From a virus, in the IMG/VR virus record IMGVR_UViG_3300046167_000229, positions 1 through 35,517 of that record: 35,517 bases of DNA; one strand, written 5' to 3'. Shown here one piece after another: positions 10,225-35,517 of the stretch (position 1 is its first letter; each line of letters begins with the position of its first letter). Made by a program: the position numbers and the translations under genes. Under the pieces are notes generated by a model. It saw only the letters and a list, made by a program, of their open reading frames with translations. It ran no database searches and was not told where the DNA came from.

Positions 10225-10993
10225 TTACTTTTTTGTTTTATCATTTTAGCCTCTAACTCGTTTTTCTCCTTTTCAAATTCTAGCCAGGTTAAACATTCGG
10301 AAGCCGATAGTTTTGCAACTTCTTTAAATTTTGTGACATCTCCTCTAGCGATTGCGTATATTGACTGATACCACCCCCACTTTGCTCCAAATCCTTTGTT
10401 AGTTGTTTGTCCGTCTTCAACTTCTGCGTCAAAGAGTCCAGTAAATAACTCGACAAAACGTTCCCTAAACGATAAAAAAAAACAACTGCACCTAGAGCTA
10501 CATTTACCGGAGCATCTTTCATTACCTCAGCATACTTATCTGAACCTTCATATTCCTCTATCAAATACAAATCCCCTTTACGGAATGTTATTGGTCTATA
10601 TAGCACCGCCATTGCCTTATGTATCTCTTGCCAATCACCAATATAATTATCTAAATCTATAAACTCACCTAAACTAATATCATCTAACTTAGGGATGAAT
10701 CCAAACGTCACACTATCCCCTTTTGGGTCTGTTAATGTAAAGTCTCTCTGTAATGGAGTATCCTCCTTAAATATCTCTACAATGTGATTTATGATAAATG
10801 AAAACTCTGCTAGAGGTAATTTATAAGCCTCCTTCATTGTGACCCCACAGAATATCTCTAATACCTTTAGATTGATAAACTCTGTATCTTCAGCATCCTC
10901 ATTCCCCTCCATAACCTTAAGGTACTTCTGATATTGCTGTAGTGTGATAGCGGACAGTTCTTGTGGTACTTCTAAAGTAAACTTTTGACTCAT
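10221..10993 (-). CDS. tail assembly chaperone, long (GT-like) product by predicted -1 frameshift
   Basis: The same start as the short product, with a -1 slip in the T9 run (codons GTT GTT TTT TTT TAT; heptamer T TTT TTT at 10475-10481). Reading then continues TTA TCG TTT AGG ... to TGA at 10221-10223. This gives 173 zero-frame codons plus 84 residues, about 257 in total. The -1 extension reads like a real T domain: 'FRERFVELFTGLFDAEVEDG', 'WGWYQSIYAIARGDVTKFKE', 'LTWLEFEKEKNELEAK'. Its stop overlaps the next gene's ATG exactly (ATGA), as at most junctions here. Lambda G/GT works the same way. A homopolymer sequencing error is the main alternative. Confidence 0.72.
10289..10993 (-). CDS. tail assembly chaperone, short (G-like) product
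   Basis: A 234-residue zero-frame protein. ATG 10993 (MSQKFTLEVPQEL...) is preferred to an in-frame GTG seven codons upstream. It has features of the Bacteroidetes-phage tail chaperone: 'LQQYQKYLKVMEG', 'FGFIPKLDDISLGEFIDLD' near the middle, 'AMAVLYRPITF', then 'ALGAVVFF'. After a T9 run (10474-10482 on the plus strand as A9) the zero frame continues for 61 residues, ending '...SGGGISQYTQSLEEMSQ...' at 10289. It is the first gene of the tail operon. A longer -1 frame product is listed separately. Confidence 0.75.
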   Translation of the reverse strand: MSQKFTLEVPQELSAITLQQYQKYLKVMEGNEDAEDTEFINLKVLEIFCGVTMKEAYKLPLAEFSFIINHIVEIFKEDTPLQRDFTLTDPKGDSVTFGFIPKLDDISLGEFIDLDNYIGDWQEIHKAMAVLYRPITFRKGDLYLIEEYEGSDKYAEVMKDAPVNVALGAVVFFYRLGNVLSSYLLDSLTQKLKTDKQLTKDLEQSGGGISQYTQSLEEMSQNLKKLQNYRLPNV

Positions 10994-11080
10994 ACCTATA
11001 TAACCTACATACACTTGTTTTGTACTAGAATAGAAAATAAAACACTTTGTAAATATTCAGTTATATCTATAGATAATCAA

Positions 11081-11104
11081 TAGGGGCTCCTACAGAGACC
11101 CCTA
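11081..11104 (-). promoter_or_regulatory. leader hairpin upstream of tail operon
   Basis: Inverted repeat TAGGGG / CCCCTA with an inner CTC/GAG pairing and a small loop. No T-run follows on either strand, so it is not an intrinsic terminator. It lies about 90 bases upstream of the first tail gene and could be an mRNA leader structure or a protein site. Confidence 0.35.
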
Positions 11105-11202
11105 AACTATTAACTAGACCTTAGATTATCACAACGCTTCTATTCAGGTAAGGGTAAATACATTCTTTTCTCAAATCATTTTTTTATTTCAACCTACTTT
11201 AT

Positions 11203-11210
11203 TATATTTG
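11203..11210 (+). promoter_or_regulatory. plus-strand Bacteroidetes-type -7 box
   Basis: TATATTTG matches the TAnnTTTG -7 element of Bacteroidetes primary-sigma promoters. The -33 position, 21 bases upstream, reads TTT instead of TTG, so that half is weak. It points toward the small-RNA candidate and its terminator. The motif alone is common by chance in AT-rich DNA; the paired terminator raises its value. Confidence 0.45.
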
Positions 11211-11214
11211 TAAT

Positions 11215-11298
11215 AACAATGCTTTGTTTCATTGTTAAATTTAGTTTTTAGTTATTTATCTAAGCCTCCTGTTTTAAGCTCTTTCAGGGGGCTTTTTT
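11215..11298 (+). ncRNA. predicted plus-strand small RNA (~84 nt)
   Basis: Downstream of the -7 box lies a perfect 7-bp inverted repeat AACAATG...CATTGTT (11215-11236). An AU-rich linker follows, then a 10-bp stem AAGCCTCCTG / CAGGGGGCTT ending in a T6 run. This is the only convincing plus-strand intrinsic terminator in a genome whose genes are all on the minus strand, and no plus-strand coding frame is present. The left arm of the terminator contains CCTCCT, an anti-Shine-Dalgarno-like sequence. The transcription start is estimated from the promoter motif. Target and function unknown. Confidence 0.5.
11262..11298 (+). terminator. plus-strand intrinsic terminator
   Basis: AAGCCTCCTG pairs with CAGGGGGCTT (one G-T pair) around a 13-base loop, followed by TTTTTT. 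On the minus strand no T-run follows the stem, so it works only for plus-strand transcripts. Confidence 0.7.
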
Positions 11299-11308
11299 AA
11301 TACCCTTT

Positions 11309-11406
11309 GATTTTTTAAAACTTGATACCTCAACCTACCGCATCTTCATTTTACGTTGATTTTATAAAACTGCATACCTCACTACCCATACGATTCATTT
11401 TACGTC
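11309..11406. repeat. imperfect tandem repeat, 2 x 49 bp
   Basis: Units at 11309-11357 and 11358-11406 abut exactly. Both begin GATTTT(T/A)TAAAACT and share ATACCTCA and TTCATTTTACGT; the middle is diverged. The repeat lies just downstream of the plus-strand terminator. Possible roles are a protein-binding or replication-associated site. Confidence 0.6.
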
Positions 11407-11452
11407 GTTTTAAGGCATTATCTCGGGCTTAGTGGTATTAAAGTATGCTTAG

Positions 11453-11482
11453 GGGGCTGAAAGGCTCTGTAAGGGGCTGAAA
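11453..11482. repeat. paired GGGGCTGAAA boxes, 20-bp spacing
   Basis: GGGGCTGAAA occurs at 11453-11462 and again at 11473-11482, a direct repeat with a two-helical-turn period in the same non-coding region. It may be an operator or part of the repeat-rich control region. Confidence 0.4.
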
Positions 11483-11551
11483 TAAAGGCAATCGGCTACA
11501 CTCTAACAAATATTTATATTCATTCTCAATTAATTACTAAAATAATGATAC

Positions 11552-11586
11552 AAAAAATACCCCCTAAAAAATTAATCTTAGAGGGT
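11552..11586 (-). terminator. intrinsic terminator of accessory cassette
   Basis: Read on the minus strand, ACCCTCTAA pairs along its whole length with TTAGGGGGT (one G-T pair) around a 10-base loop, followed by ATTTTTTG. It lies 34 bases after the stop of the last cassette gene and closes the 13674-11620 transcription unit. Confidence 0.75.
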
Positions 11587-11619
11587 AACCAAACAAAATC
11601 AAATTGAAAAAAAGTATTG

Positions 11620-11754
11620 TTATTCTTTAGTGTTTAGTTTATCGAATTGCTCAAAAGATATTCTTTTACTAAAGCCGTTTTGATTAGATAAAAAGTACTT
11701 GTTATCTAGTTCAACAGTGTAGAAATGCTGTGTAAGTTTCTTGATATATTTCAT
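11620..11754 (-). CDS. small accessory protein
   Basis: A 44-residue protein, MKYIKKLTQHFYTVELDN..., ending LNTKE. Its ATG overlaps the TGA of the upstream gene (ATGA), and the cassette terminator follows. It is charged and aromatic, with no membrane segment. Unrecognised; last gene of the accessory cassette. Confidence 0.6.
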   Translation of the reverse strand: MKYIKKLTQHFYTVELDNKYFLSNQNGFSKRISFEQFDKLNTKE

Positions 11755-12110
11755 TCCTCTGTCTTTTTAGGTTCGTCCCTTTCGTCCCATTCGTCAACAA
11801 ACAAAATCCTAGTTTGTATTAAGCTTTCATAATCTTGGTACATATGCTCTAAACTTTGGGCCATTCCTTTTATATCATTAAACATAAAACCATTTGCTGT
11901 ATTGAATGGGTCAAAATCTATTGAATGAATTTGTTTACCGTTTTTTAGTACTGTTATTCTAACTTTGCCAAAGTGCTGCGTTTCCCAAAACAAACGTTTG
12001 TGTTTTTGTTCCTTATTGTCTAAGCGGTCCAGTATTTCCTCAATACTTTCTTTTTTTATTTGTTCAATTTCATAGTCTGTCAAGTATGTATATTTTTTCT
12101 CTGTCTTCAT
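11751..12110 (-). CDS. accessory cassette protein of unknown function
   Basis: A 119-residue hydrophilic protein. It has a Lys/Glu-rich helical N-terminal half ('YEIEQIKKESIEEILDRL') and a beta-like middle 'FGKVRITVLKNGKQIHSIDF', then an acidic, Trp-containing end. It is the penultimate gene of the cassette, 4 bases after the GP88-family gene. No known family recognised. Confidence 0.65.
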   Translation of the reverse strand: MKTEKKYTYLTDYEIEQIKKESIEEILDRLDNKEQKHKRLFWETQHFGKVRITVLKNGKQIHSIDFDPFNTANGFMFNDIKGMAQSLEHMYQDYESLIQTRILFVDEWDERDEPKKTEE

Positions 12111-12114
12111 TTTG

Positions 12115-12864
12115 TTAAAGTTTAATTAATTGCTTTTTCCTTTGTTCTATTGGGGCCGTTACTACAAAGCCGCTTTTATCTTTGCGTGCCTCACCTTTTG
12201 CTCGTAAACCCAAAACAACATTTTTGTTATAGATCATTACCAGGTCACTGGTATCCCCGTCCACAACCTTAAAGCCCCGCCAATATTGTGGGAGCTCCCC
12301 GTTAAAAACAATAGAAACGTTTGAACCGTCGTTTAAAGCTGCAATAGCTGCGGACTCATTATCTTCAGCCCTGGAAAAAGTTAAAAAGTAGTTTGAATGA
12401 TCTTTATATTTTTTGACCTTACCTAGTATTTTAGTATAGTCATAAAAAATTGCGGTCGGTTGTAGGTCCTCAATATCTAAACCGGCATACTTTTTAAGTA
12501 AGTAGATAAAATCCTGGTCACTGGTCCCGTTTAAACGAAAGGCTATTTTTTCACCTTTCTTTTCGGCTTTCGCTGTTTCTCTTACTATTTCCTTTGCAAG
12601 CTGTTTAATAAATAAACTTTTATTATAAATAAAGTAGTTTGTTTTATTAATCCTAGAGCTCTGTACATTTGAGAATTTACCACGTCCGGCTGTGAATAGG
12701 CAAGCCTTTGCACAACCTTTAGAAGCACTGGGACAAATATTTATTTTCTTTGCGTTTTGGTTATATGGTGACAAATAAAGTATAAACGTTTTTAGATTAT
12801 TCTTTTTTGTTTTGGCATTGGTGAAACCTTTACTTAATAGGTTTTTTGGTATAGTATATTTCAT
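12115..12864 (-). CDS. GP88-family phage protein
   Basis: A 249-residue protein matching the Gene 88 (GP88) family known from mycobacteriophages and many other phages. Residues about 43-75 hold the signature 'CPSASKGCAKACLFTAGRG' followed by 'VQSSRINKTNYF', and about 110-118 has 'AFRLNGTSDQDF'. The three conserved cysteines (CxxxxxxCxxxC) suggest metal or cluster binding. The biochemical role of the family is not established. The gene is the longest of a self-contained cassette and its codon use looks like that of its neighbours. Confidence 0.8.
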   Translation of the reverse strand: MKYTIPKNLLSKGFTNAKTKKNNLKTFILYLSPYNQNAKKINICPSASKGCAKACLFTAGRGKFSNVQSSRINKTNYFIYNKSLFIKQLAKEIVRETAKAEKKGEKIAFRLNGTSDQDFIYLLKKYAGLDIEDLQPTAIFYDYTKILGKVKKYKDHSNYFLTFSRAEDNESAAIAALNDGSNVSIVFNGELPQYWRGFKVVDGDTSDLVMIYNKNVVLGLRAKGEARKDKSGFVVTAPIEQRKKQLIKL

Positions 12865-12868
12865 TTTT

Positions 12869-13120
12869 TTAATATGTTAAATTTGTTTCATCTCCTAAAA
12901 TATCTAATAAAATACTTTTTATTTTGTCTTGAATTTCATTAGGTAATTCATCAAAAATATTTGTGTCGGTTATTTCTTCTATACATTCAACATCTTCTAA
13001 GCCGTCACCGTTATAACATACCCCAAAAATCCTACATTCAATATCATTTATATTTGCTGTGAATTGTGGATATGTTAAAACAACATAGTTTTCAACATTG
13101 TCAATTTTATCGATTTTCAT
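12869..13120 (-). CDS. acidic accessory protein
   Basis: An 83-residue strongly acidic protein (MKIDKIDNVENYVVLTYPQF...) with 'ECIEEITDTNIFDELPNEIQ' in the second half. Its start overlaps the upstream stop (ATGA). No family recognised. Small acidic proteins in early phage cassettes sometimes mimic DNA or bind host enzymes; nothing here proves that. Confidence 0.6.
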   Translation of the reverse strand: MKIDKIDNVENYVVLTYPQFTANINDIECRIFGVCYNGDGLEDVECIEEITDTNIFDELPNEIQDKIKSILLDILGDETNLTY

Positions 13121-13482
13121 TTTAATATAGTTTTATTTAGTTCCTTAATGTTTTTTATACTTTCATCAATTACCAGGTCAGTAACGAAAATAGTTTTCCC
13201 GTTTATTTTAACCCATATCAAAGTATTAAGATTAACGAACCTTTTAGCCTTATTAATATTATCTTCACTTTGTGAAAGGTCCATATCTAGGACGGGTAAC
13301 AAACCTTTTGCCATAGGATCAAAAGAAAGTCCTATTCCCTTATTCCCTTTTTTTACGCCAGTACGGGCGGTCATTGTGCGAGGTATTGTAAACTCTTTTG
13401 TCTTCTTATCTTTTTTAAGGAAGTGAGCTGTGAATATTTTACCGCTTTGCATTTCTTTTAATAAGTCTTTAAATGTTTTCAT
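13117..13482 (-). CDS. small beta-barrel-like accessory protein (WYL_2/DUF2693-like?)
   Basis: A 121-residue basic protein. 'FTAHFLKKDKKTKEFTIPRT' near residue 18, 'TARTGVKKGNKGIGLSFDP' and 'VLDMD...RFVNLNTLIWVKI' resemble the Sm/SH3-like WYL_2 (DUF2693) pattern of phage and plasmid proteins. The match is by eye and weak. A nucleic-acid-binding role would fit. It overlaps the next gene by 4 bases. Confidence 0.55.
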   Translation of the reverse strand: MKTFKDLLKEMQSGKIFTAHFLKKDKKTKEFTIPRTMTARTGVKKGNKGIGLSFDPMAKGLLPVLDMDLSQSEDNINKAKRFVNLNTLIWVKINGKTIFVTDLVIDESIKNIKELNKTILK

Positions 13483-13509
13483 TTTGATATAGTTTTTAAT
13501 AGTTAATAA

Positions 13510-13674
13510 TTAAAGGCCCCAGGAACCGGAAGAAAAACCGCCCTGTATTAAACCGTTATAAAATACAATTGCAATAAGACAACCAATAACGGCAAATATT
13601 AAGATTTTAGTCAAAGGCCCGTCAATAAAGCTCAAAACTTTGTCCTCTGTTTGTGTGTGTGTTTGTGTATTCAT
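13510..13674 (-). CDS. small single-pass membrane protein
   Basis: A 54-residue protein: polar Thr/Gln-rich N-terminus (MNTQTHTQTEDK), one transmembrane segment about residues 24-42 ('ILIFAVIGCLIAIVFYNGL'), then a Gly/Ser-rich tail. It is the first gene of the accessory cassette, 28 bases after the -7 box of a consensus promoter. Expression early in infection with an envelope function is possible; no family recognised. Confidence 0.65.
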   Translation of the reverse strand: MNTQTHTQTEDKVLSFIDGPLTKILIFAVIGCLIAIVFYNGLIQGGFSSGSWGL

Positions 13675-13701
13675 TTTATTAGTTTTTATTGTTATTCATT
13701 A

Positions 13702-13733
13702 CAAATATAAACAATTTTGTTAATATCTACCAA
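13702..13733 (-). promoter_or_regulatory. Bacteroidetes-type promoter of accessory cassette
   Basis: On the minus strand, TTG (13733-13731), a 21-base spacer and TATATTTG (13709-13702) match the TTG / TAnnTTTG consensus. It lies 28 bases upstream of the first ATG of the cassette. It is the clearest promoter in the window and faces a transcription unit that ends in its own terminator. Confidence 0.7.
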
Positions 13734-13880
13734 ATAAAAGAAAAAATATTTTCCCTTATATAATTAAGGTACGCACGCGAATAATAAAAACTTTTTTATT
13801 GTGCAAGTGTAAACACAGTTTTTTTCGGTTCAATAGTTTCCAAAGTTTACAGAATGAAACCGCAAAGAATATCAACCTTA

Positions 13881-13924
13881 ATTGTATCAACAACAATTGT
13901 ATTGACAACATTTGTAGGCACAAC
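13881..13924. repeat. degenerate ~15-bp direct repeats
   Basis: Three related units begin at 13881 (ATTGTATCAACAAC), 13896 (ATTGTATTGACAAC) and 13910 (ATTTGTAGGCACAAC), spaced 14-15 bases apart, directly before the 17-bp array. They are less conserved than that array. Confidence 0.45.
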
Positions 13925-13945
13925 AGTCAAAAAGGCAAAGCGACC

Positions 13946-14030
13946 GAACCTACTGCGTTTAAGAACCTACTGCGTTTAAGAACCTACTGAGTTCAGTGAC
14001 CTACTGCGTTTAATGACCCACTGCGTTTAA
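13946..14030. repeat. five tandem 17-bp repeats (iteron-like array)
   Basis: Five contiguous units of exactly 17 bases start at 13946, 13963, 13980, 13997 and 14014. The consensus is GAACCTACTGCGTTTAA. Units 1 and 2 are identical, unit 3 is most diverged (GAGTTCAG end), and units 4 and 5 begin TGACC. CTACTG or CACTG plus CGTTTAA is the conserved core. The length and contiguity resemble replication iterons or a multimeric operator. There are no spacers of CRISPR type. Confidence 0.8.
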
Positions 14031-14060
14031 TAGAATTTTTGGACGGGAGGAAAAAATAAT

Positions 14061-15266
14061 TCACCGAATAACATAACTCCCTTTGTTTGCATTTGCAAGG
14101 AAGTATTGAGCTGCATAACGTAAGCTATCCATATGGTGATTCCATTTATCTATTGGCCTTTCATTCCTACTGTGCCATACATAGTTGTTGAGTTCCTTTA
14201 TAAGTTCTAAGGAATCTGGGTCAACAATCAAATCAAAATCCTGTATCAAAGCTATACCAGTTAATATACTACCTTGCCTCTTTATTGCAGGTTTTACATT
14301 ACAATATACTTTGAGCTCCTGGAGCAACCTAGGCTCTGCTGAGTCGCATACAATAAGTTGATCCTGGGCATATCTTCTATTCATCTCCCCTATCTCTTTT
14401 GTAGAAAGACCAACTTTGCAGTACATTGTCTTTAACCACATTTTCTTCCTATCCTTATCAATACCTACTTTAAGTAGAACCGTAGGATCTACAGAGAACC
14501 CAAAATCTTGACCATATACATAAGGGGTGTATTCGTTGAATGGTCCAATAGTCCAACGAGTGAATACAACACCATCAGCTTTATCTAACCAACCACCCAG
14601 TATCTGGTGATTATATTTATCCGGTCTGCGTCTACGAATCTCTTCTATCTGCATAAGGAATGAATCAGATAGATGCTCCATATTATCTTTGAATGTAGTG
14701 TGAATATAAGTTACGTTATCCTTCCAACCATTGTGTCCACCATTAACGGCTTTAGCTGCAAAGAACCTTTGGTATATCCAGTGCTCTTTAGTTGTAGGGT
14801 TTAATATTAATATAACTCTATTAGGTTTATTCTTTGCCCTTACAGACTGATCTATCTTATCAAAAGTATCTTCATCAACAAGTTCCTCTGCCTCATCTAG
14901 TACAAAGGTTGTAATACCTTGTAGGGACTTCAGGGCAGCCGTTTGATTACCTGCTGAGGTCTTGATACCTTTAAATATAATAGAGCTCCCTGTGGACATA
15001 TTTAGTATCTCATCTTTAGTTATCCTAAAGTGTTCAGAGATACCATACAACTCTATCTTTTCGATAAACTCTGGAATGATAGATGTAGAAGCTGAAGACA
15101 TAGTGTACCTAGTGAATAGTATCTTATGGCCTTGTTCCATCGTTAGGAGGGCTAGGAATGCCCCTACAGCAAATGACTTACCACTACCTCTACCACCAGT
15201 AACTACAAAGTATCTACTGTCGTTACCTAGGGCTTGATATTTATCGTTTAGTTGTGGTACTGACAT
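14061..15266 (-). CDS. terL: terminase large subunit
   Basis: A 401-residue PBSX-type large terminase. It has the Walker A motif GGRGSGKS at residues 24-31 and Walker B 'TFVLDE' at about 120-125. The C-terminal nuclease has 'YGQDFGFSVDP' near 250 and 'VCDSAEP' near 315 as candidate metal-binding aspartates. It powers DNA packaging through the portal and cuts concatemers. It follows the putative small subunit with two micro-genes between them. It is last in the long replication/packaging operon and is followed by the repeat-bearing control region. Confidence 0.93.
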   Translation of the reverse strand: MSVPQLNDKYQALGNDSRYFVVTGGRGSGKSFAVGAFLALLTMEQGHKILFTRYTMSSASTSIIPEFIEKIELYGISEHFRITKDEILNMSTGSSIIFKGIKTSAGNQTAALKSLQGITTFVLDEAEELVDEDTFDKIDQSVRAKNKPNRVILILNPTTKEHWIYQRFFAAKAVNGGHNGWKDNVTYIHTTFKDNMEHLSDSFLMQIEEIRRRRPDKYNHQILGGWLDKADGVVFTRWTIGPFNEYTPYVYGQDFGFSVDPTVLLKVGIDKDRKKMWLKTMYCKVGLSTKEIGEMNRRYAQDQLIVCDSAEPRLLQELKVYCNVKPAIKRQGSILTGIALIQDFDLIVDPDSLELIKELNNYVWHSRNERPIDKWNHHMDSLRYAAQYFLANANKGSYVIR

Positions 15267-19134: not shown

Positions 19135-19250
19135 ATCTTGTTTTTTAAAAAGTACATATACATATTAACTATCTCTCTTGAGGTCTTACCCTCTAGATCT
19201 TCATACATAGCATTATACCAATCTATAAAGTCTAGCAATTCGTCTTCCAT
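19131..19250 (-). CDS. small acidic helical protein
   Basis: A 39-residue ORF, MEDELLDFIDWYNAMYEDLE..., coupled on both sides: TAATG with the sigma factor stop and ATGA with the next start. The double coupling supports it despite its size. Unrecognised; a sigma-factor partner is conceivable by position only. Confidence 0.6.
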   Translation of the reverse strand: MEDELLDFIDWYNAMYEDLEGKTSREIVNMYMYFLKNKI

Positions 19251-19822
19251 TATTCCTGGTCTATTAGATTAAAATCTCCATTCAGATAGTCTTCAAAGTC
19301 TTCACCAAACTTACTCTTAAGTATGTCCTTGTAATTCTTACAACTATTGAATATGGATGTAACAGATATCTTAGTTTCCTTAGCGAGTTTACGCATACTC
19401 ATATCCGTCTTATAGTACAGCTTGAATAGCTTTTTATCATACCAGTGATCCCAAGACTCCACCTCTTCATTTATCTTCCTCAATATTGAAGCCTCGGCCA
19501 TCTCCTTCTCATAATTAACCTCTTCATAGATTATATTATCACTGGTGTTAAAAACATATTCGCTATCGTAATTGTCTATTCTATAAACAACATACTTTGA
19601 CTTAGCTTTTGAATAGTCACTCCAAAGGTTCTTTATGGTTATGTAAACATAAAACTTATTTACCTCCGTCTCGTTATACATTATTTTCTCAGGATTGTCA
19701 ACATACTTGTTTAGCCTAAGATAAGTCTCGTGGACAAAGTCCTCAACTATATCCTGGGGGATACCAATAGATAAACCCATAGCTATCCAAACATTATGAT
19801 TTTTACTGAGGATCTCTAACAT
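19250..19822 (-). CDS. sigma-70-like (ECF-type) RNA polymerase sigma factor
   Basis: A 190-residue protein. Region 2-like 'IVEDFVHETYLRLNKYVDNP' is at about residues 25-44, with 'FYVYITIKNLWSDYSKAKSK' after it. Region 4-like helix-turn-helix 'MSMRKLAKETKISVTSIFNS' lies near 140-160. It probably redirects host RNA polymerase to phage promoters, for instance those of the late genes, for which no TAnnTTTG promoter was found. It is a middle gene of the replication/packaging operon. Confidence 0.75.
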   Translation of the reverse strand: MLEILSKNHNVWIAMGLSIGIPQDIVEDFVHETYLRLNKYVDNPEKIMYNETEVNKFYVYITIKNLWSDYSKAKSKYVVYRIDNYDSEYVFNTSDNIIYEEVNYEKEMAEASILRKINEEVESWDHWYDKKLFKLYYKTDMSMRKLAKETKISVTSIFNSCKNYKDILKSKFGEDFEDYLNGDFNLIDQE

Positions 19823-34013: not shown

Positions 34014-34457
34014 TTATTTATTTAATCTTGCTAAAACTCTATCAAGAGTAGTTGCAGGTGCGTTTTGAGAGTATAAATGTAAATTCTTGCTCTCTGTTGC
34101 GTTCTCTGGGCTGTGAGTTAAAGGCTCTTCATCAGCAGATAGTTCTTGAGGAACTTCTTGCTTAGACTCTTCTTTAGCCTCTAATTGACCCATTAGTTTT
34201 TCTACCATAGCCTTAACTTCCGCTAATTCTTCTTTGGTAGCATAAGACATTTCAGATTTAGGCTCCATAGCCTCAACCTCTTCAGAAGCCTCCACTTCAG
34301 GAGCTTCTTCTAATTCCGTCATAACTTCTTCCTCTTTAACCTCTTCAGTGGCATCTTCAAGTTGTACTTCTTCTTGTGCAATATCTTGAGTTTCCACCTC
34401 TTCAGCTGAAGACAAAAGAACTTCCTTTAGTTTGGAAACGATTTCTGTTGCTTTCAT
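34014..34457 (-). CDS. capsid scaffold-like protein
   Basis: A 147-residue, very acidic protein with long Glu-rich stretches and a coiled-coil-like middle ('KEELAEVKAMVEKLMGQLEA', about residues 73-92). A polar C-terminus ends 'TLDRVLARLNK'. Composition, length and location just ahead of the major capsid gene fit a scaffold. The basic C-terminal helix could be the capsid-binding end. The 5' part is repeated at 1-264. Confidence 0.75.
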   Translation of the reverse strand: MKATEIVSKLKEVLLSSAEEVETQDIAQEEVQLEDATEEVKEEEVMTELEEAPEVEASEEVEAMEPKSEMSYATKEELAEVKAMVEKLMGQLEAKEESKQEVPQELSADEEPLTHSPENATESKNLHLYSQNAPATTLDRVLARLNK

Positions 34458-34507
34458 AAAAATTGATGTTTATAATTATTACTGATTAAAAATATATTGT
34501 TGTATTT

Positions 34508-34663
34508 TCAAGTGCCGTCACCAGTCACATTACCAACTCCTTGAGCCTGTAAAGAACCATCACAACATTTTCTTGAATACGTTTTACCGTCTTTACATAA
34601 ACAGCCTCTACTGCCACCTTTAGGTGAAGAGTAGCTTGGTGTAGCTTTCATTCTCTTTTTCAT
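34508..34663 (-). CDS. small Cys-rich phage protein (copy B)
   Basis: A 51-residue protein identical in sequence to copy A. Its ATG at 34663 overlaps the TGA of the variable gene here (ATGA), whereas copy A uses a TAATG overlap. Both versions keep translational coupling despite the different stop. Confidence 0.7.
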   Translation of the reverse strand: MKKRMKATPSYSSPKGGSRGCLCKDGKTYSRKCCDGSLQAQGVGNVTGDGT

Positions 34664-35289
34664 AAACCTGCGTTTTGTGTACGTTGTATGAAGAATATAA
34701 TATCCCATATCTTAGCAGGACCACCATCAGCTTGTATCTTAGGTGTCAATCCATTTGCTAAAGCATTTGCATCTAAATAGTATTGGAACATTATATGTTG
34801 ATTTTGTGTTTCATCATTTCCTTTATAGAAACCTAATGCCATATTGATTCTATCATAATCATCAGCACCTCTTAATATAAAGTCTAAGTGAGTCTGATTC
34901 GCATTACCGGATGATTTCTTAAATACAACGGTCACACTATATACATCATTTTCATTCACCCCCACAAACTTATTAGTGGATGAATTATAGAAATCAATGC
35001 TCGAATGACTCCTTACCACACTAGCTGCATCATTAGGTAGTGTGACCTCAACTCCATCTGTCAGTATTAGTTTATTTTCAGCGTGATATGTTGAATCATC
35101 ATATCTTGCCCAACCTAAACCAAGTGCACCTGTTTGAGGATATACTATTACATTTTGGTTATTATGACCCATATACAATGCGTCATCAGTGCGTAGCATT
35201 GCACCGTTCTCTATATTCACAGAATCTACCTCAGCTTGGGTAGTATCTTGAACGTGTACTCTATATGAAGTATTCTTTGTTGTGGCCAT
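34660..35289 (-). CDS. variable virion protein (head decoration/fibre candidate), allele B
   Basis: A 209-residue homologue of the 470-1096 product. Residues 1-53 are identical, residues 54 onward differ at roughly half of positions, and the C-terminal 'FIQRTQNAG' is shared; this copy has one extra Leu. Conserved islands in the variable part include 'GWARYDD', 'RSHSSIDFYNS', 'NENDVY', 'NANQT' and 'KGNDE'. They suggest the same fold with different surface residues. Confidence 0.75.
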   Translation of the reverse strand: MATTKNTSYRVHVQDTTQAEVDSVNIENGAMLRTDDALYMGHNNQNVIVYPQTGALGLGWARYDDSTYHAENKLILTDGVEVTLPNDAASVVRSHSSIDFYNSSTNKFVGVNENDVYSVTVVFKKSSGNANQTHLDFILRGADDYDRINMALGFYKGNDETQNQHIMFQYYLDANALANGLTPKIQADGGPAKIWDIIFFIQRTQNAGL

Positions 35290-35291
35290 AT

Positions 35292-35517
35292 TTACTGTTT
35301 AGGTACGCAGTTAGGTACTTTTCTACCATTCTTAGTCTTAAATCCAACCATTTCATATCCTTCTTGGCAAGGGTTTACATCCTCTAGTTCTTCTAAACCT
35401 CTAAGTTTAGACTCAGTCCAATTAAGCATACTTTTGCCTCCCCATAGAAGATAACTGATAGTTCCACAAGCCTCAGGCTTACTAGGATCATAATATTCAG
35501 CAGCCCTACTTAAGTAA
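35292..35517 (-). CDS. head protease C-terminal fragment (5'-truncated copy)
   Basis: The last ~75 codons of the XkdF-type protease, corresponding to 1099-1324, cut off by the window edge. Nearly identical to the first copy, with a few base differences. It belongs to the terminal overlap. Confidence 0.85.
   Translation of the reverse strand, partial: YLSRAAEYYDPSKPEACGTISYLLWGGKSMLNWTESKLRGLEELEDVNPCQEGYEMVGFKTKNGRKVPNCVPKQ

Follow-up and report, generated by a model that had tools for sequence, protein, structure and literature searches.

The OOP RNA of phage lambda is a short phage transcript that has its own promoter and terminator, runs against the neighboring genes and is antisense to cII, and the lambda pO promoter has an importance for DNA replication that goes past the RNA sequence (review PMC12197685). 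P22 sar, lambda aQ and other phage antisense RNAs are also small RNAs made against the main direction of transcription (PMC12197685). In Flavobacterium psychrophilum, intergenic small RNAs such as Rfp18 are independent short transcripts, and the main promoters of that bacterium are of the TAnnTTTG type (PMC9723704). Here we describe a predicted plus-strand transcription unit of comparable build in an IMG/VR virus record, IMGVR_UViG_3300046167_000229. The window, meaning the whole stretch analyzed (positions 1-35,517 of the record; 35,517 bases, about 35% G+C), carries all of its substantial, annotated-length genes on the minus strand. On comparative grounds the unit, at 11203-11298, is a real, conserved and previously unnamed element.

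Results

Positions 34194-35517 of the window are a partly diverged second copy of 1-1324, which makes a circular genome of about 34.2 kb probable. Two versions of one gene, at 470-1096 and 34660-35289, have near-identical ends and a strongly diverged middle, which suggests a hypervariable gene in the sampled population. The nearest isolates by large terminase are the Nonlabens (Persicivirga) phages P12024S and P12024L (53% amino-acid identity), making a flavobacterial host likely, and the phage group, an uncultivated one, probably has marine, Flavobacteria-type hosts. Searching GTDB species genomes for a prophage or host returned no related terminase and no match to the tandem repeats described below, and a database comparison with known phages gave no DNA similarity of substance to the unit region. 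A 190-aa protein encoded at 19250-19822 has weak similarity to sigma-70/ECF factors and is a candidate phage regulator of later promoters.

The unit opens with a predicted -7 promoter box of the Bacteroidetes sigma-A type TAnnTTTG, TATATTTG (11203-11210, plus strand), recognized from the sequence and the alignment. In F. psychrophilum this box sits at -12 to -5 (PMC9723704), a rule that would place the first RNA base at the A at 11215, which coincides exactly with the first base of a hairpin beginning 4 bases past the box. This 5' hairpin (11215-11236), seen in the window and its near relatives, pairs AACAATG (11215-11221) perfectly over 7 bp with CATTGTT (11230-11236) around an 8-nt loop. It is followed by an unpaired linker that is U-rich and C-poor in base composition (11237-11261) and by an intrinsic terminator (11262-11298) with a 10-bp stem (AAGCCTCCTG at 11262-11271, CAGGGGGCTT at 11285-11294), a 13-nt loop and T6 at 11293-11298. 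With its start set by the -12 to -5 rule and its end by the terminator, the predicted untranslated RNA is about 84 nt long (11215-11298, plus strand), and the unit folds with a z-score of -3.9. The first-pass annotation had read a short motif, a perfect 7-bp hairpin within 5 bases of it and a 10-bp terminator with T6 from this DNA, and the letters on the plus strand confirm all three. It had also stated that no plus-strand ORF is present; none is conserved or of annotated length, but one 22-aa frame with a TTG start does lie inside the unit, the only one there of at least 15 aa.

We scanned both strands for TAnnTTTG boxes with a stem (9 bp or more, at least 5 G-C pairs) and a T-rich tail no more than about 120 nt behind them. 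This combination of box and strong terminator turned up once in the window and never in first-order Markov shuffles (0/200); the arrangement is not a chance pattern. The plus strand has no TAnnTTTG between 10308 and 11203, for which reason we rejected a longer plus-strand transcript beginning ahead of the first conserved block flanking the unit (block 1, below). Rfam gave no matches in the window at the gathering threshold and only chance-level, sub-threshold matches at a permissive one; a tRNA or tmRNA remnant was rejected, as none was found. A minus-strand leader ORF running through the unit (ATGAAACAAAGC.. in the window) was discarded because its start and frame are not kept in relatives. 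No minus-strand gene overlaps 11203-11298, so no overlapping coding message is complementary to the unit.

To place the unit among relatives, we searched with gA (10289-11014, minus strand; PHROG 32199, of unknown function), which heads the downstream operon and is divergent from the unit. This search yielded 34 loci, and pattern and GP88 searches supplied further ones. Sixteen distinct related viral contigs carry the box and a plus-strand terminator in the same place, antisense to the genes, with predicted RNAs of about 65-108 nt. The box is in register in all 18 aligned close sequences (18/18), as TATATTTG or TATCTTTG, and the unit is also present in the divergent L019 (box TATCTTTA) and L021. 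Partial forms occur: in L115 and L141 the terminator is present but no clear promoter stands at the right distance, L020 keeps the promoter and is missing the terminator, and L009 has a promoter without a terminator and a plus-strand ORF instead of the small RNA. More distant relatives, L022, L107, L110, L121 and L127 among them, keep both flanking conserved blocks and are without the unit, so the blocks do not depend on it. In L028-L034 and P12024S the terminase and gA are adjacent and the whole region is missing.

Set against L028-L034, window positions 11014-14061 mark the terminase-gA junction as an insertion zone, which in the remaining relatives holds accessory genes, GP88 among them, that take up as much as about 4 kb. 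The plus-strand ORF in the small RNA's place (L009 1-260; L097 5526-6234) has a promoter resembling one at window position 13709, and the other end of the contig carries the terminase and 17-bp repeats. In L036, from the same contig as L002, a plus-strand GIY-YIG-like ORF is inserted between g44 and gA; it sits between the small-RNA terminator and the direct repeats, which resume behind it. A link of the unit to the GP88 gene was rejected, since GP88 is missing from L115 and L141 although the terminator is there, and the unit is missing from L107 and L110 although GP88 is there.

Across 14 terminators, 130 of 140 stem cells are paired, compared with a mean of 97.7 and a maximum of 123 under permutation, and the pairs include 12 GU and 0 AC; these counts are over sequences, not independent events, and the arms were registered by hand, MAFFT having failed to align them in register. 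Several stem positions show three or four different pair types, and the terminators of L010, L011, L042, L007, L012, L115, L141 and the window type all differ from one another. A strand-neutral stem search gave 135 Watson-Crick, 15 GU and 0 AC pairs for the terminators, and 97, 2 and 1 for the 5' hairpins. Since pairing is kept despite sequence change, with GU and without AC pairs, we conclude from this comparison that the terminator is a selected plus-strand RNA structure. The GU and AC counts exclude its being read on the minus strand, in agreement with the earlier description of it as plus-strand-only.

The first-pass annotation had looked to covariation of both hairpins in relatives, and this held for the terminator but not for the 5' hairpin. 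Folding ahead of the terminator is no better than in shuffles across 12 representative bodies (Fisher p = 0.36; window alone, p = 0.06), so the 5' hairpin is not a family feature: it occurs in the window and some relatives, and by this comparison not beyond chance across the family. The sequence CCTCCT, singled out earlier in the terminator arm, is there in the window's letters but is not conserved. We rejected it as an anti-Shine-Dalgarno element because it is missing from many relatives' terminators and because Bacteroidetes mRNAs are naturally without SD sequences (PMC6847099). The broader proposal of a dedicated plus-strand transcription unit in a minus-strand genome stands, given the 16 relatives, the covarying plus-strand terminator and the position beside the start of a long operon.

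Conserved DNA lies on both sides of the unit. Block 1 (11034-11176, from an alignment of 17 sequences) comprises AAAATAAAACA, TTATATCTATAGATAA, an inverted repeat GATAATC/GATTATC that encloses an imperfect hairpin, AGGGGCTC-CTACA-GAGACCCCT, and a motif TTCTTTTCTCAAAT. The inverted repeat shows T-A to C-G double changes, reading GATAACC/GGTTATC in several relatives. AAAATAAAACA is nearly invariant and on the minus strand gives a TATTTT-like box upstream of gA, which in L006, L010, L014 and L042 reads TATTTTTG, about 26-38 nt upstream of gA. The stretch at 11060-11176, with the inverted repeat, the imperfect hairpin and TTCTTTTCTCAAAT, is recognizable at a gA identity of only about 50%, and block 1 can also be made out in distant relatives that have no unit. 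In most members, the window included, the gene strand has no canonical TAnnTTTG from gA to the upstream gene; the plus-strand box, in contrast, is always present. Block 1 may be the promoter region of the gA operon, with the plus-strand unit as its divergent partner.

Block 2 (11307-11411) consists of two 49-bp direct repeats, TTGATTTTTTAAAAC..ATACCTCA..TTCATTTTACGT, kept as one or two copies across the family. Beyond it, a predicted minus-strand terminator at 11558-11587, with varied but retained stems in relatives, closes the upstream gene cassette, so that block 2 is flanked by terminators facing each other. A 17-bp repeat, TTCTTAAACGCAGTAGG in minus-strand sense, stands in five tandem copies at 13946-14030, just behind the large terminase gene. 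About 50 IMG/VR contigs from the wider family have same-strand copies of this repeat, in some cases within the terminase gene as well, and so do the element-bearing relatives whose contigs include that stretch. The array looks iteron-like or packaging-related, and the region with the blocks and repeats may be a cis-acting control or replication zone.

The RNA body is the least conserved of the parts compared. Mean pairwise identity is 0.69 for block 1, 0.68 for the spacer and promoter, 0.56 for block 2 and 0.48 for the body, with 0.605 at gA fourfold-degenerate sites and 0.35 for shuffled bodies as references, the comparison with fourfold sites not being a strict one for a non-coding body with indels. 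Between L007 and L012, identity is 97% in block 1 and falls to 35%, the shuffled level, in the body. By these numbers the body is almost free to change, or is exchanged. What varies less is composition: in 12 representatives the 25 nt directly ahead of the terminator contain on average 56% T and 5% C, against a mean of 36% T in the window's plus-strand intergenic 25-mers, and this U-rich, C-poor linker persists in most otherwise unrelated bodies.

Discussion

Given a preserved promoter and terminator around a drifting body, we favor a role for transcription over sequence: host polymerase would make a short, untranslated RNA that diverges from the gA operon, and the making of this RNA would count for more than its letters. 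We put the probability of this reading at roughly 40%. Host RNA polymerase would initiate at about 11215 from the TAnnTTTG promoter, copy about 84 untranslated nt and stop at the dedicated intrinsic terminator. The unit and the start of the gA operon would be transcribed divergently, with a conserved control region that they share. Such short transcription could open or supercoil the neighboring control or origin-like DNA; alternatively, the unit could set the balance between two divergent promoters. At the level of sequence comparison we establish the promoter, the terminator, their strand and position, and their conservation as one unit; from these we infer transcription during infection, and that the act of producing a short RNA here outweighs its letters. 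Its position makes a role of the putative RNA in the early/late switch possible. In favor of this reading we count the 16 relatives together with L019 and L021, the terminator covariation, a body below fourfold identity, the unconserved 5' hairpin, the lack of target preference described next, the flanking repeats and the mostly absent gene-strand TAnnTTTG. Against it stand L020 and L009, without the terminator, L115 and L141, without a clear promoter, and the more distant relatives in which both blocks persist although the unit is missing, and a sequence-indifferent role does not predict the U-rich, C-poor linker across unrelated bodies.

Since that composition is otherwise unexplained, we regard a trans-acting phage sRNA as almost as likely. 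Here the U-rich linker and terminator would form a protein-binding or base-pairing module acting on A-rich phage or host leaders, and the body would change fast because targets or hosts change. The anatomy is sRNA-like, the T-rich linker is kept across unrelated bodies, length is held at 65-108 nt, and regulatory sRNAs exist in Flavobacteria (PMC9723704). The searches for targets speak against it: a conserved seed or covarying target complementarity was not found among phage targets, own leaders were not favored over foreign ones in duplex energy for any of ten phage genes, and the window linker showed no enrichment on phage start regions (mean -6.4 kcal/mol, vs -6.6 for the rest of the minus strand). 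The 5' hairpin, too, is unconserved. A conserved targeting sequence, for which the first-pass annotation proposed to search with the unpaired linker and loops, is not supported, given this lack of preference among phage targets and a body identity below that of fourfold sites. A variant that we consider unlikely is a phage sRNA family with exchangeable bodies, in which the fixed promoter, U-rich linker and terminator would make up a cassette flanked by blocks of invariant DNA, and its variable portion would be swapped or diversified between close phages, retargeting host or phage messages.

The two terminators that face each other around block 2 could instead serve for insulation only, blocking transcription into the repeats from either side, with the RNA as waste. 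L115 and L141, which retain the terminator without a good promoter at the right distance, fit such a role; the close group, however, keeps the promoter no less well than the terminator, and L020 and L009 have a promoter without a terminator, so that we think insulation alone improbable. Least probable is a relic, a promoter formerly serving a plus-strand accessory gene with a terminator closing the emptied slot, for although L009 has a plus-strand ORF behind a promoter at the same spot and L002 a GIY-YIG-like plus-strand ORF just behind the terminator, 17 sequences with a covarying terminator and an unchanging promoter box show continued selection, and L009 has a promoter of another sequence, one resembling that at window 13709.

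In a phage group that is uncultivated and apparently widespread, the locus offers a non-coding transcription unit whose place is known and which can be tested. It marks the boundary of the terminase cassette and the gA operon, beside conserved repeats resembling a control or origin region. With start and stop kept and content drifting, it lends itself well to asking whether the function lies in transcription as such and not in the RNA.

As to known systems, the unit has the features of the general kind of independent phage-encoded small RNA: a host-type promoter in 18 of 18 close sequences, its own same-strand intrinsic terminator with a covarying stem, and no conserved ORF, the window unit having only the 22-aa TTG frame and the body being variable. 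It resembles the flavobacterial sRNAs of the Rfp18 type in being an independent short unit in a TAnnTTTG-type promoter setting, but those are chromosomal and conserved in sequence, whereas the window unit is phage-borne and its body unconserved. It opposes the main direction of transcription, as do P22 sar and lambda aQ; those overlap a coding target, whereas the unit overlaps none and, unlike antisense RNAs of the OOP and sar type, is not complementary to an overlapping coding message. With OOP and pO it shares the form of a short RNA unit that has its own promoter and terminator and opposes the neighboring genes. OOP overlaps cII, whereas the window unit is intergenic with no overlapping message, and the two are unrelated in sequence and belong to different phage groups with different promoter types. 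Although the unit is not a member of the OOP type, lambda OOP is its nearest precedent in behavior.
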